This document shows positions 25,133-44,687 of a stretch of 44,687 nucleotides of DNA, one piece after another (position 1 is the stretch's first letter; the number at the start of each line of letters is the position of its first letter). The stretch comes from a virus, in IMG/VR virus record IMGVR_UViG_3300022072_000022, positions 1 to 44,687 of that record; one strand, 5' to 3'. The notes under the pieces were generated by a model that had not been told where the DNA came from, ran no database searches, and worked only from the letters and a program-made list of their open reading frames with translations. Both the position numbers and the translations under genes were made by a program.

Positions 25133-25163
25133 CAAATATACAAAACCGCAACCGTAAAACAAA
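25133..25163 (-). promoter_or_regulatory. Bacteroidota-type promoter, exact match
   Basis: Read on the minus strand, TTTG (25160-25163) is followed by exactly 19 bases and TATATTTG (25133-25140), a perfect TTTG-N19-TAnnTTTG. Transcription would start about 17 bases before the GIY-YIG start codon. Confidence 0.85.
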
Positions 25164-27109: not shown

Positions 27110-27739
27110 CTAAGCATTTTCTTTATTAAGATTATACCATTCAATCTCTGCTTGAACAATTGGATCACTAAGGGCTTCTTTTATCATTATTGTACCTGCT
27201 TCAATCCCTGCTTTTAGTTTTTCTATTTTGACCTCATCCCTTTTAAAAGTTTTTAAATAGATACTTTGCTTAAAATCTTTATTATAAGAAACAAAATCCC
27301 AAGTATCATAACCGCTAACTAACATACACATCTGCATTTGCCAAATAGTGCTAGATTCTACTTTTCCAAATCTCAATAAAGCCATGTGTTTTTTGTGATT
27401 CCTTGCTTTTATTTCCAAACCTTTCTTTGCTCCTTTTATTAATCCATCTGGAGAAACACCGCAATATTTTGTATACTCTATAAATCCAATCTCTTCTACT
27501 GTATTGCCTGTTTCAAATTCATACTTAATTCGTGCAATAGGTTCTAATTCGTGCCCCCTTTCCGTATCTTTATTGGTTATGAATACACTATCAGTATGAA
27601 GGTCTTTTATAATGTCATCTACATAGGTTTTTAAGCCTTTGCCGTTGTTTCCTATCGCTGTGGCATGGGAACCAGTAAGCTTCCCATACCTCATAGCGTG
27701 CCACTCGTCCGAGCCTTGCAACATTTTATGTATTTTCAT
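27110..27739 (-). CDS. YqaJ-like / lambda-type recombination exonuclease
   Basis: A 209-residue nuclease. Conserved elements appear in order: QGSDEWHAMRYGKLTGS near the start, RGHELEP (61-67), GVSPDG with catalytic Asp (94-99) and LEIKA with Glu and Lys (108-112), i.e. the PD-(D/E)XK core of the YqaJ/lambda exonuclease family. It resects double-stranded ends 5' to 3', giving single strands for the annealing protein encoded just upstream. The two genes overlap by 14 bases. The pair forms a phage recombination or replication-repair system. Confidence 0.92.
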   Translation of the reverse strand: MKIHKMLQGSDEWHAMRYGKLTGSHATAIGNNGKGLKTYVDDIIKDLHTDSVFITNKDTERGHELEPIARIKYEFETGNTVEEIGFIEYTKYCGVSPDGLIKGAKKGLEIKARNHKKHMALLRFGKVESSTIWQMQMCMLVSGYDTWDFVSYNKDFKQSIYLKTFKRDEVKIEKLKAGIEAGTIMIKEALSDPIVQAEIEWYNLNKENA

Positions 27740-28523
27740 CTTCTAATTCTTTTCTTTTTTCAGACAATAGATTCAAAAACGCTGTTTCATCTTTCAATTT
27801 ACCTTTGTTTAAAGTATAAATATCCATTAACTCTTTTGCCGTTGTTGCTTTCTCAATCTTTACTTGAACCTCCGAATCAAGATCAACGTTTTCAAGATCA
27901 TAATTTTCATTATCAATAGATTCCATGTTCGTAACAACGTCTTTAAAGTGTCGCTTACAAGATCTTTTCATTACAGATTTTAAAACCATTTCATCTTCCC
28001 ATATATCCCAAATTCTATGAGTCTTAGCTACGTTTTTCATTTTAGCTATTTCGTTCATATTTAAGAACTCCAAAAATTCGCCTCTATTATTTTTTATAAC
28101 ACAATAAGCGCCAATTGTTTTGTTTTTTAATTCAAAAGGACTGCCAAAAACATGAGTATAAATAACTTTTCCACTTTCTTTTTTGAACTCAAAAGTGTCT
28201 CCCTGTCTAACTATTTGTAAATCGAATTTAGATTCTGGGTAAACATTTAGAAGCTTGTTCTTGTATGCTTGATAGTTATAATTAGCCATTACTTTGCCTT
28301 TATTGGCTAGTGTAACGGTGTCCCCATCTATGTAGATGTTATCAATTGCAACTTTCTTGTAAAGCGCAGCGGCTTGGCTAGCCTTAAAGAATCCAAACCA
28401 TTTATTTTTAAGCTGATTATTTCTGTCTTTATCTGTCTCTAATTGCCTTAAATAACCTAAATATACATTTACCTTTTCTTGGTCGTAATCTTTCAATAAA
28501 AGCGTAAGTTCTTTGTATTCCAT
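27726..28523 (-). CDS. recT: RecT-family single-strand annealing protein
   Basis: A 265-residue protein with features of RecT: KASQAAALYKKVAID near residues 47-61, IVRQGDTFEFKKE, GAYCVIKNNRGE and WEDEMVLKSVMKRSCKRHF (about 170-190), then an acidic C-terminal tail. RecT binds single-stranded DNA and anneals complementary strands; with the exonuclease it promotes strand-annealing recombination. The tail may contact host or phage single-strand binding protein. Start at ATG 28523, with the gene 28559-28963 upstream in the same transcript. Confidence 0.9.
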   Translation of the reverse strand: MEYKELTLLLKDYDQEKVNVYLGYLRQLETDKDRNNQLKNKWFGFFKASQAAALYKKVAIDNIYIDGDTVTLANKGKVMANYNYQAYKNKLLNVYPESKFDLQIVRQGDTFEFKKESGKVIYTHVFGSPFELKNKTIGAYCVIKNNRGEFLEFLNMNEIAKMKNVAKTHRIWDIWEDEMVLKSVMKRSCKRHFKDVVTNMESIDNENYDLENVDLDSEVQVKIEKATTAKELMDIYTLNKGKLKDETAFLNLLSEKRKELEDENT

Positions 28524-28558: not shown

Positions 28559-28963
28559 TTACCCTAGTATGGTTTTGTATGATTTTAAATTATGTTTCTC
28601 TTTAAATTTCTCAACTTCGATAATGTCAGAAAACAAAGACACTGAACGGGTGAAATCTTTGCCCAATTGAGTAAAGAACTTATACCCTATTACCTTTTGT
28701 TTCTGAATATCAATATCATAAGTCGTCTTACCTGTCAAATAACGCTCATAAATAACCGCAGCAGCCGAGCAAATACCATCCGTTGCATTATCATCCATGC
28801 AATACGTTTCTATTTCGTGTTCGTTAATGTCAAGGACAAAAGCAATGTCTTGGTACGAAAAATACATATTGTACCAAACGTTAGTATTTTGGTCCTCTGC
28901 CTCTATTTTTACATAACCACCGCTTAGTTTGTAATTGTCAGTGTCTAGGTGTAAATCTTTCAT
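28559..28963 (-). CDS. Unknown protein upstream of recT
   Basis: A 134-residue acidic protein with several aromatic residues. The middle (YCMDDNATDGICSAAAVIYERYLTG) and the C-terminal helix suggest a compact alpha/beta fold. It is the first gene after a promoter at 29001-29033 and would be made with RecT and the exonuclease. No family recognised. Confidence 0.65.
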   Translation of the reverse strand: MKDLHLDTDNYKLSGGYVKIEAEDQNTNVWYNMYFSYQDIAFVLDINEHEIETYCMDDNATDGICSAAAVIYERYLTGKTTYDIDIQKQKVIGYKFFTQLGKDFTRSVSLFSDIIEVEKFKEKHNLKSYKTILG

Positions 28964-29000: not shown

Positions 29001-29033
29001 CAAATGTAAAACAAAATATTTAGAGTTCCTAAT
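29001..29033 (-). promoter_or_regulatory. Promoter with ATTAGGAA in the upstream position
   Basis: On the minus strand ATTAGGAA (29026-29033) is followed by 17 bases and TACATTTG (29001-29008), a match to TAnnTTTG. No TTTG occurs at -33. Start codon 28963 lies about 33 bases after the expected start point. The same arrangement occurs at 29791-29822 and 29846-29878. Confidence 0.65.
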
Positions 29034-29045
29034 TTTAAGAAGGAA

Positions 29046-29492
29046 TTATTTAGTTATTGAGGGAAATAAATCAATTGCGGCACTTTCTAGCTTGTCTCTG
29101 TCGTTACTTAAATAAGCCTTAATTATCCTTTGGGCGTCCAAAAACCCAACCGCAAAGCAACTAAACCAACCTTCTTCTCTTAATGCTAAAAGGTAATCAT
29201 ATTGCTCTTTTAAATGGTCATTTTTGTAAAGTTCACCGTTTCTTTTAGTAATCGTTTCGCCTTTCCTTTTGAACTCAATAGCTAATCCACAATAATCTAT
29301 TGTTCCAGTATAGCCGCTGAATACTTTTTGAAACATCATGTCGGGGTGTCCTCGTCTTGCCCTACTTGCTTTCACTTTCTTTGCTTGACCTATCGTTAAT
29401 TTGATGCCTCCTAAATCTTCTGTATACAATAAATTAGGGTATTGGATTTTTACCCAATTTAGTAATTGCTTTTGCTCTTGTGCTTCTGTCAT
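29046..29492 (-). CDS. VRR-NUC domain nuclease
   Basis: A 148-residue protein of the VRR-NUC (PD-(D/E)XK) family. Key elements: SRARRGHPDMMF with catalytic Asp (about 44-54), LAIEFKRKG with Glu and Lys (70-78) and the downstream Gln/Tyr helix EQYDYLLALREEGW (96-109), then FAVGFLDAQRIIKAYL. Such nucleases process branched or end structures in recombination. It follows a small gene and lies next to RecT and the exonuclease. The small size suits the stand-alone phage form. Confidence 0.9.
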   Translation of the reverse strand: MTEAQEQKQLLNWVKIQYPNLLYTEDLGGIKLTIGQAKKVKASRARRGHPDMMFQKVFSGYTGTIDYCGLAIEFKRKGETITKRNGELYKNDHLKEQYDYLLALREEGWFSCFAVGFLDAQRIIKAYLSNDRDKLESAAIDLFPSITK

Positions 29493-29493
29493 T

Positions 29494-29763
29494 TCAATAG
29501 ATTTTAATTATGCCCCCTAAATCGTTTAATTTATACTTTACCTCCATGTGGTCCAAAAGTCGAACTATCGTTTCTTGCTTGGGTAGTTTATTGTTTTTAC
29601 CCTTCGGTTTGTTCGGGTCGTACTTCTGAATATCAATAATTCCATTTACACGGATTCCAAAAGGATTTTCACCACCTTCTTTAATTAAGTTTCGAACCTT
29701 ATATATAGTGTGATCGTTTTTTTTAATGAACTCATCAATCCGGTGCCTCAGTTTTTCTAACAT
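29494..29763 (-). CDS. Small protein upstream of the VRR nuclease
   Basis: An 89-residue basic protein. Its N-terminal helix and VRNLIKEGGENPFG pattern, and the later LPKQETIVRLLDHM, suggest a small helical DNA-associated protein, perhaps with a helix-turn-helix, but no family is certain. It is first in the leftward operon after promoter 29791-29822. Confidence 0.6.
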   Translation of the reverse strand: MLEKLRHRIDEFIKKNDHTIYKVRNLIKEGGENPFGIRVNGIIDIQKYDPNKPKGKNNKLPKQETIVRLLDHMEVKYKLNDLGGIIKIY

Positions 29764-29790
29764 TATTTTTTGTTTAATTATCTAATAATA

Positions 29791-29822
29791 CAAAGATAAC
29801 GCTTTTTACTTAAATTCCTAAT
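29791..29822 (-). promoter_or_regulatory. Promoter with ATTAGGAA in the upstream position
   Basis: Minus strand: ATTAGGAA (29815-29822), 16 bases, TATCTTTG (29791-29798). It reads into the gene starting at 29763 and is back to back with the rightward promoter at 29846-29878. Confidence 0.7.
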
Positions 29823-29845
29823 AAAAAGAACTTTTCTTTCTCGAA

Positions 29846-29878
29846 ATTAGGAAAATCAAAACCTTTGTTATATCTTTG
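29846..29878 (+). promoter_or_regulatory. Promoter with ATTAGGAA in the upstream position
   Basis: ATTAGGAA (29846-29853), 17 bases, TATCTTTG (29871-29878). It reads into the gene at 29921 with a leader of about 40 bases. No TTTG at -33. Confidence 0.7.
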
Positions 29879-29920
29879 AGTTATCAACAACGAAACATTA
29901 ACCAATAAAAACTTATAAAA

Positions 29921-30268
29921 ATGAAGAGTGAAAACACATTAAACGAAGAAATAAAAATATTGAAAGCCGAAATAAAGATAAAAGAAGAAGAGATAATTTT
30001 TAAAAGAAATGAATTAAGGAAACTGAAATTTAAAACTGTCTCTTGGGATGAATTAACCCAATATTTAAAAGATAATCCTAAGGAAGATAAGTATGATAAC
30101 CCAATAGTTTACTGTAAGCATCATCAAGAGTCGCACTACACTCACATCACAAAAGATGGAACTTTGCAATTGGGCGCATATTATAGCCAAGATCGGACAT
30201 CAAGGGGTTCTGATTTAAAAGTCTTTAAAGATATGAGGTCTTGGAATTTTCAATACCACAACAAATAA
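29921..30268 (+). CDS. Small coiled-coil protein, first rightward early gene
   Basis: A 115-residue protein. Residues 1-40 form a Lys/Glu-rich coiled coil. The C-terminal part has clustered His/Cys (VYCKHHQESHYTHIT) that might bind a metal, then basic and aromatic residues. It follows a promoter directly; early take-over function is possible but unproven. Confidence 0.65.
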   Translation: MKSENTLNEEIKILKAEIKIKEEEIIFKRNELRKLKFKTVSWDELTQYLKDNPKEDKYDNPIVYCKHHQESHYTHITKDGTLQLGAYYSQDRTSRGSDLKVFKDMRSWNFQYHNK

Positions 30269-32966: not shown

Positions 32967-32997
32967 TTGCAATATCCAAAAGCCCGTTGTATATTTG
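32967..32997 (+). promoter_or_regulatory. Bacteroidota-type promoter
   Basis: TTG (32967-32969) in the context CTTG, 20 bases, then TATATTTG (32990-32997). It lies after the terminator at 32872 and reads into 33034 with about 33 bases of leader. The same CTTG-N20-TATATTTG form recurs at 36273-36303. Confidence 0.7.
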
Positions 32998-44404: not shown

Positions 44405-44590
44405 ATGGAGGTAAAGAAACGAGGCGGACAAGAAAAAGACGTGTACAAGGGAGTCCAAGTGACCGAAAGGCTGCTAAAGATTCCCGACTACATGGCGTTC
44501 CAACAGATGGCGAAAAACGAGGGCGTGCCAGTAGTGGAATTGATTTATAAAATATTGCTTGCTGAACTTAGTGAGTTTGAAAATAAATAA
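44405..44590 (+). CDS. Small ribbon-helix-helix-like DNA-binding protein
   Basis: A 61-residue protein with the layout of Arc/MetJ-type regulators: basic N-terminus (MEVKKRGGQEK), a short strand with alternating residues (KGVQVTERLLKI), helix 1 (PDYMAFQQMAKNEG) and helix 2 (VPVVELIYKILLAEL). Such proteins dimerise and bind short inverted repeats through the strand. Its own promoter carries AGATAA-N6-TTATCT across the -7 box, so it may repress itself and the similar promoter at 42438. Fold assignment is by pattern only. Confidence 0.6.
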   Translation: MEVKKRGGQEKDVYKGVQVTERLLKIPDYMAFQQMAKNEGVPVVELIYKILLAELSEFENK

Positions 44591-44687
44591 AAATGAAAAA
44601 AATAGAAAAAAGACTTACTAATCTACAAAACTCAAACAGCGGCTTGTTTTTCAAAAACGAAGCATTGCAAAGAGAATTTAAAGCTAT
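44562..44687 (+). repeat. Terminal direct repeat, right copy
   Basis: Identical to 4-129; see left copy. Closing the circle here gives a unit length of 44,558 bp. Confidence 0.95.
44593..44687 (+). CDS. 5' part of the coiled-coil gene (same gene as at 35)
   Basis: This is the first 95 bases of the gene annotated at 35-316, cut by the window end. It is not a second copy. Confidence 0.85.
   Translation, partial: MKKIEKRLTNLQNSNSGLFFKNEALQREFKA

Follow-up and report, generated by a model that had tools for sequence, protein, structure and literature searches.

Three promoters (A, B and C) of the window, which is the whole 44.7-kb virus record analysed here, are probably host primary-sigma promoters (sigma-ABfr type, Bacteroidota), in which ATTAGG(AA) represents a natural variant of the -33 box ATTTGG(W). 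In this variant A would stand in for the third T of TTTG, with the normal spacing to the -7 box TAnnTTTG retained, and the host holoenzyme alone would read A, B and C. For a 16-bp similarity that the three sites also share, the likeliest source would be a phage regulator with an operator that overlaps this -33 box. This reading rests on sequence comparison, namely the register of the box, a peak in its spacing, its recurrence in unrelated phages and its interchange with ATTTGG in sibling promoters, and it is from phages that we infer the use of ATTAGG by hosts.

The three promoters and the genes they face

Promoter A: 29001-29033, minus strand; -33 variant ATTAGG(AA) at 29033-29026, N17, -7 box TACATTTG at 29008-29001
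Promoter B: 29791-29822, minus strand; ATTAGGAA at 29822-29815, N16, -7 box TATCTTTG at 29798-29791; faces the 89-aa ORF
Promoter C: 29846-29878, plus strand; ATTAGGAA at 29846-29853, N17, -7 box TATCTTTG at 29871-29878; faces the 115-aa ORF

A DNA search and a script found exactly three copies of ATTAGGAA-N16/17-TAnnTTTG in the record and no others, and the same three were the only matches genome-wide when the spacer was widened to N15/18. An earlier sequence-only reading had described these sites, and its coordinates, strands and spacings (N17, N16 and N17) are all correct. The -7 boxes (TACATTTG, TATCTTTG and TATCTTTG) fit both TAnnTTTG and the refined TAHHTTTG. All three promoters lie between genes, and an ORF begins 35-50 bases past the start of the -7 box; for promoter A, upstream of the 134-aa ORF and recT, this distance is 45 bases.

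The motif TAnnTTTG, taken by itself, is about as frequent in the window as expected (69 copies, against 62), so most of its copies there are due to chance, and to this extent a chance pairing of the 8-mer with TAnnTTTG might be entertained. Such a pairing is hardly credible, however, and is refuted by the sequence statistics: among 400 dinucleotide-preserving shuffles the N15/18 pattern was present once in four and twice in none, and the sites in the window all stand between genes, before a coding sequence. Any 8-mer common to at least three TAnnTTTG at one distance was obtained in 11 of 400 dinucleotide shuffles. A, B and C are convincing candidate promoters whose sharing lies far above chance level.

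The genes concerned are:

YqaJ-type exonuclease: 27110-27739, minus strand; Pfam PF09588, E 2e-19
RecT-type annealing protein: 27726-28523, minus strand; Pfam PF03837, E 5e-12; PHROG 148
134-aa ORF: 28559-28963, minus strand; first gene past promoter A, immediately 5' of recT; orphan
148-aa ORF: 29046-29492, minus strand; second gene past promoter B; PHROG 824 (function unknown)
89-aa ORF: 29494-29763, minus strand; first gene past promoter B; orphan
115-aa ORF: 29921-30268, plus strand; first gene past promoter C; no relatives found

Promoter A leads into the 134-aa orphan, recT and the YqaJ nuclease, promoter B into the 89-aa orphan and the nuclease-like ORF, and promoter C, divergent from B, into the 115-aa orphan. 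The earlier statement that the sites face genes of a recombination and early hub therefore holds, since they serve a divergent pair and the recT operon. Relatives of the 148-aa ORF are annotated as restriction-endonuclease-like or hypothetical. No relatives of the 89-aa ORF turned up in collections of viruses, genomes, phages or plasmids, and its single-sequence structure model (pLDDT 58) was too poor for search use. Pfam and PHROG scans assigned no family to the 134-aa ORF, and a weak match to it in locus L116 (E 0.004), located within a 602-aa ORF, was discarded.

The same scans, which divergent orphans could escape, recognised no sigma factor, polymerase subunit, MotA-like or AsiA-like gene among the window ORFs, so that the modified polymerase invoked by the sequence-only reading has no recognised counterpart here. 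No DNA-binding protein or regulator was recognised among the window ORFs either; the 89-aa and 115-aa ORFs gave no helix-turn-helix (HTH) match, and comparing them with profiles of the relatives' HTH proteins returned nothing.

The leaders of A (29008-28963) and C (29878-29921) both carry ACGAAACA, about 11-12 bases past the -7 box, which is absent from B. Near the two ends of the record, an identical stretch of 33 bases is present at 32-64 and 44590-44622, which may represent a terminal or circular overlap; no exact end-to-end repeat of 11-500 bases was detected in the window record.

A variant of the -33 box recurring in phages

The sigma-ABfr consensus consists of TTTG at -33 and TAnnTTTG at -7, the latter refined to TAHHTTTG (PMC6847099). 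The -33 box is a poorly defined element in Bacteroidota. It is barely visible in global data from Flavobacterium johnsoniae (PMC6847099), and both boxes have been confirmed genome-wide in Bacteroides thetaiotaomicron (PMC7366714). A short search of the open-access literature found neither a paper that maps transcription starts in Bacteroides phages and gives a promoter motif nor a report of the ATTAGG variant.

The window promoters resemble sigma-ABfr promoters in their exact -7 box, the register of the -33 box, a spacing of 19-20 between tetramer and -7 box, and a short AT-rich leader, and differ from them in having A for the third T of TTTG and an extended ATT(A/T)GG core instead of bare TTTG. 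Transcripts from sigma-ABfr promoters are expected to begin 4-5 bases past the -7 box. It had been claimed that none of the three has TTTG at -33. To the letter this is correct, but the exact -33 register is occupied by TTAG, which has a single mismatch to TTTG: within ATTAGGAA it lies N20, N19 and N20 before the -7 box at A, B and C, where TTTG normally lies at 19-20. The promoters previously offered for comparison as bearing a normal TTTG bear this out at 25133 (TTTG at N19) but not at 32990 and 36296, which have CTTG at N20, the TTTG of 36296 being at N24.

A scan of IMG/VR for ATTAGGAA-N16/17-TAnnTTTG returned at least 119 stretches, and many of the matches lie between genes in apparently real promoters; intergenic here means that no ORF of 240 bp or more was present, a call that rests on ORFs and not on annotation. 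Among the matches listed, ATTAGGAA was intergenic in 31 of 58 cases at N17 and in 10 of 73 at N16 (Fisher p 1e-6), the background being 16%. In Bacteroidota phages the extended ATTTGG is the working -33 box, with a peak 19 bases before TAnnTTTG. In the pooled loci, among the matches listed, TTTGG had a sharp peak at this distance (34 intergenic, 14 coding); TTAGG peaked at the distance of TTTGG, its five copies at this place that had not been selected by the pattern search being all intergenic and none coding, and TTCGG and TTGGG showed no peak.

Further counts come from a comparison set of 20 complete or partial phage records (1.38 Mb), which are of very different sizes and were each picked for one ATTAGGAA promoter. 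ATTAGG-N18/19-TAHHTTTG is present there in 42 copies, 22 of them beyond the selecting copy of each record, and the reversed control in none. At N18/19 the set contains 89 copies of ATTTGG and none of ATTCGG, and when ATTAGG was moved eight bases off register (N26/27) only two copies were found. These patterns indicate that the box extends to ATT(T/A)GG and lies exactly 19 bases ahead of TAnnTTTG; A would be tolerated in it and C would not.

The two forms also interchange within single phages. The 33-bp promoters ATTAGGAAATACCAAATAAATTTCGTATATTTG and ATTTGGAAATACCAAATAAATTTCGTATATTTG of G031 are distinguished solely by a T-to-A change and belong to different genes with unrelated flanks, and ATTAGG and ATTTGG promoters are mixed in L116, L019 and L092. 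This interchange, the equal register and the recurrence in unrelated phages mark ATTAGG as a form of the host -33 box that recurs among phages, and not as its replacement. The sequence-only reading had instead proposed a phage-specific promoter class in which ATTAGGAA takes the place of the normal -33 box. That ATTAGG differs from ATTTGG by one base and lies at equal distance, and that this form is found in 20 other phage records (42 copies) both tell against it; the observation of three shared sites is real and the interpretation as a new promoter class mostly fails, leaving the earlier account partly supported.

The host-variant reading is itself opposed by copy B, which has an N16 spacer, N16 sites elsewhere not being enriched between genes among the matches listed. 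Furthermore, G026 (the 91-kb record of L017) has seven ATTAGG promoter-like sites against one with ATTTGG; this phage may use the A form nearly exclusively, and the A form could therefore mark a separate class in some phages. It is unlikely that ATTAGG versus ATTTGG at -33 defines, in many Bacteroidota phages, a distinct class of promoters with its own timing; A and T would then have to be told apart by a factor or through a sigma contact. If it did, one -33 base would set the temporal class, with G026 as the extreme case. As ATTAGG is one letter off the normal box and is used by many unrelated phages, it appears mostly to be an ordinary feature and not a phage-only type. What had looked like a phage-only class thus becomes a testable host-promoter variant, and the extended box sharpens promoter prediction in phages of this phylum, and perhaps in their hosts.

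The 16-bp element and the recT relatives

In all three sites TTCT is present 8 bases upstream of ATTAGGAA, a feature overlooked by the sequence-only reading, extending the similarity to the 16-bp TTCTYNNNATTAGGAA:

Copy A: 29026-29041, minus strand; TTCTTAAAATTAGGAA
Copy B: 29815-29830, minus strand; TTCTTTTTATTAGGAA
Copy C: 29838-29853, plus strand; TTCTCGAAATTAGGAA

Pairwise identities between the copies are 14, 13 and 12 of 16, a sum matched by one of 200 shuffles. Copies B and C stand back to back between the divergent genes, with a gap of 7 bp (23 bp centre to centre), and the third copy (A) is 0.8 kb off, before the recT operon. TTC-N10-GAA is present in every copy; the best common dyad was equalled in 14% of shuffles and is not significant. 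TTCT stands at the matching place in 3 of 3 sites here against 3 of 102 ATTAGG promoters pooled elsewhere, and those three cases probably come from records already picked for TTCT. In IMG/VR the TTCT-extended pattern was found in 18 records, mostly within ORFs, the clearly intergenic cases being L187, L192 and L195 with one copy each. The rarer -33 variant combined with TTCT at three promoters exceeds what a general ATTAGG class explains, and the placing of TTCTYNNNATTAGGAA at both divergent early promoters and before the recT operon appears to be specific to the phage of the window.

The recT relatives compared with the window (mostly 41-61% identity) were taken from IMG/VR and one metagenome-assembled genome (MAG). 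In the virus records of recT relatives that were searched, the ATTAGGAA promoter motif is absent throughout, and the 3.8-Mb MAG (G010) has two isolated matches on contigs other than its phage-like locus; the 8-mer, which a phage-specific class in the sense of the sequence-only reading should have placed before orthologous genes, is thus absent from the relatives examined. Two of the relatives have other repeated elements. In G002 (L135-L137), AATAAAATATTTT(A/G)TT is present at four promoters and ends 17-19 bases before the -7 box, and in G004 (L138-L140), AATAAATATTTTTAT abuts the -7 box at four promoters, each beyond the level seen in shuffles. Both elements are phage-specific AT-rich near-palindromes in a fixed place before TAnnTTTG, the recT operon included. 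Phage-specific repeated promoter elements are thus present in part of the recT group, with differing letters. No significant repeated element was found at the promoters of G012 and G005. In G001, a gene for an HTH_26 protein (Cro/C1-type) lies immediately 5' of recT, and homologues occupy that position in G002 and G004.

A phage-like locus (L144, contig JALZUP010000026.1), whose promoters are of Bacteroidota type and whose recT shares 57% identity with that of the window, belongs to a MAG labelled Robiginitomaculum (Alphaproteobacteria), which suggests mis-binning.

Possible regulators of the three promoters

Several known systems offer partial likenesses to the window sites. The two elements of 16 bp that lie between the divergent promoters, 7 bp from each other and over the upstream boxes, are similar to the operators of lambda OR, in which the OR1-OR2 arrangement is close to the B/C spacing (a 7-bp gap and 23 bp between centres). 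They differ from them in their weak dyad, in the repressor, which was not recognised, and in the third copy 0.8 kb away before the recT operon. A lambda-like geometry (TTCCTAAT-N15/30-ATTAGGAA-N14/19-TAnnTTTG) was sought in IMG/VR and found in three records; these are of one genotype and lie inside a terminase-like ORF, so that the matches are attributed to chance. The TTAG/CTAA half-sites of the window element also recall the non-canonical LexA operator of Bacteroidota, CTAA-N5-TTAG (PMC8565304). This candidate was rejected, as the letters read directly at the three sites do not fit it and TTAG is explained by the -33 box. T4 middle promoters, which combine a MotA box at -30 with the sigma -10 element, likewise deviate from the consensus in the upstream box, which stands where the host element would be. 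The window box, in contrast, is one base off the host box, is present in many unrelated phages and has no recognised MotA/AsiA counterpart; an upstream box unrelated to the host element, as in T4, is not what was found, ATTAGG being interchangeable with ATTTGG.

The 16-bp sharing could reflect a phage repressor, possibly encoded by the 89-aa or the 115-aa ORF, that binds TTCTYNNNATTAGGAA, covers the -33 box and so shuts off A, B and C. Such a repressor is a serious though tentative possibility and is compatible with the sigma-ABfr promoter reading. It would explain why one 16-bp stretch recurs at three promoters and why the sharing extends past the -33 core, and it is favoured by the back-to-back copies between B and C, by the other repeated elements at promoters of recT relatives (G002, G004) and by the HTH_26 gene 5' of recT in G001 with its homologues. 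It is weakened by the dyad, which 14% of shuffles equal, by the lack of a recognised DNA-binding protein in the window, the 89-aa ORF having no detectable HTH, and by G004, where the repeated element abuts the -7 box and does not cover the -33 box. A phage regulator, be it a repressor or perhaps an activator, that uses the 16-bp element as operator is nevertheless plausible, and the phage-specific sharing would be read most naturally as an operator that overlaps with the -33 box and is occupied by an early regulator of the phage.

An activator or sigma appropriation of the T4 MotA/AsiA kind, in which a phage protein on ATTAGGAA replaces the contact of sigma with the -33 box and turns the promoters on, is quite improbable. 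The fixed -33 position, the want of an exact TTTG, the clustering of three promoters in one functional region and the nearly ATTAGG-only usage of some phages (G026) agree with it, but a phage-specific activator does not predict that ATTAGG is common to 20 phage records and alternates with ATTTGG at equal spacing, and MotA-, AsiA- and sigma-like genes were not found in the window. It is this alternation with the host box in unrelated phages that makes a MotA-like activator less likely. The 16-mer might, finally, be shared without any dedicated regulation, through duplication of one copy or drift in a phage that favours this -33 form. The families of similar promoters in L017, L092 and L099 and the ACGAAACA of the A and C leaders are in line with such an origin, which is rather doubtful given that the promoters are dissimilar outside the element and that TTCT is rare upstream of ATTAGG elsewhere.

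Many Bacteroidota phage promoters (L019 and others, G027) have ATTTGG-N4/5-(C/T)CAAAT, an interrupted inverted repeat that runs from the -33 box into the spacer and may reflect sigma contacts or an operator. A 12-kb stretch of L099 (G037) contains many repeated promoter blocks of the forms CATTAACACT...TTAACTACTATGTATTG...TATCTTTG and TTTGGATATGT(C/T)AAAT...TATCTTTG.
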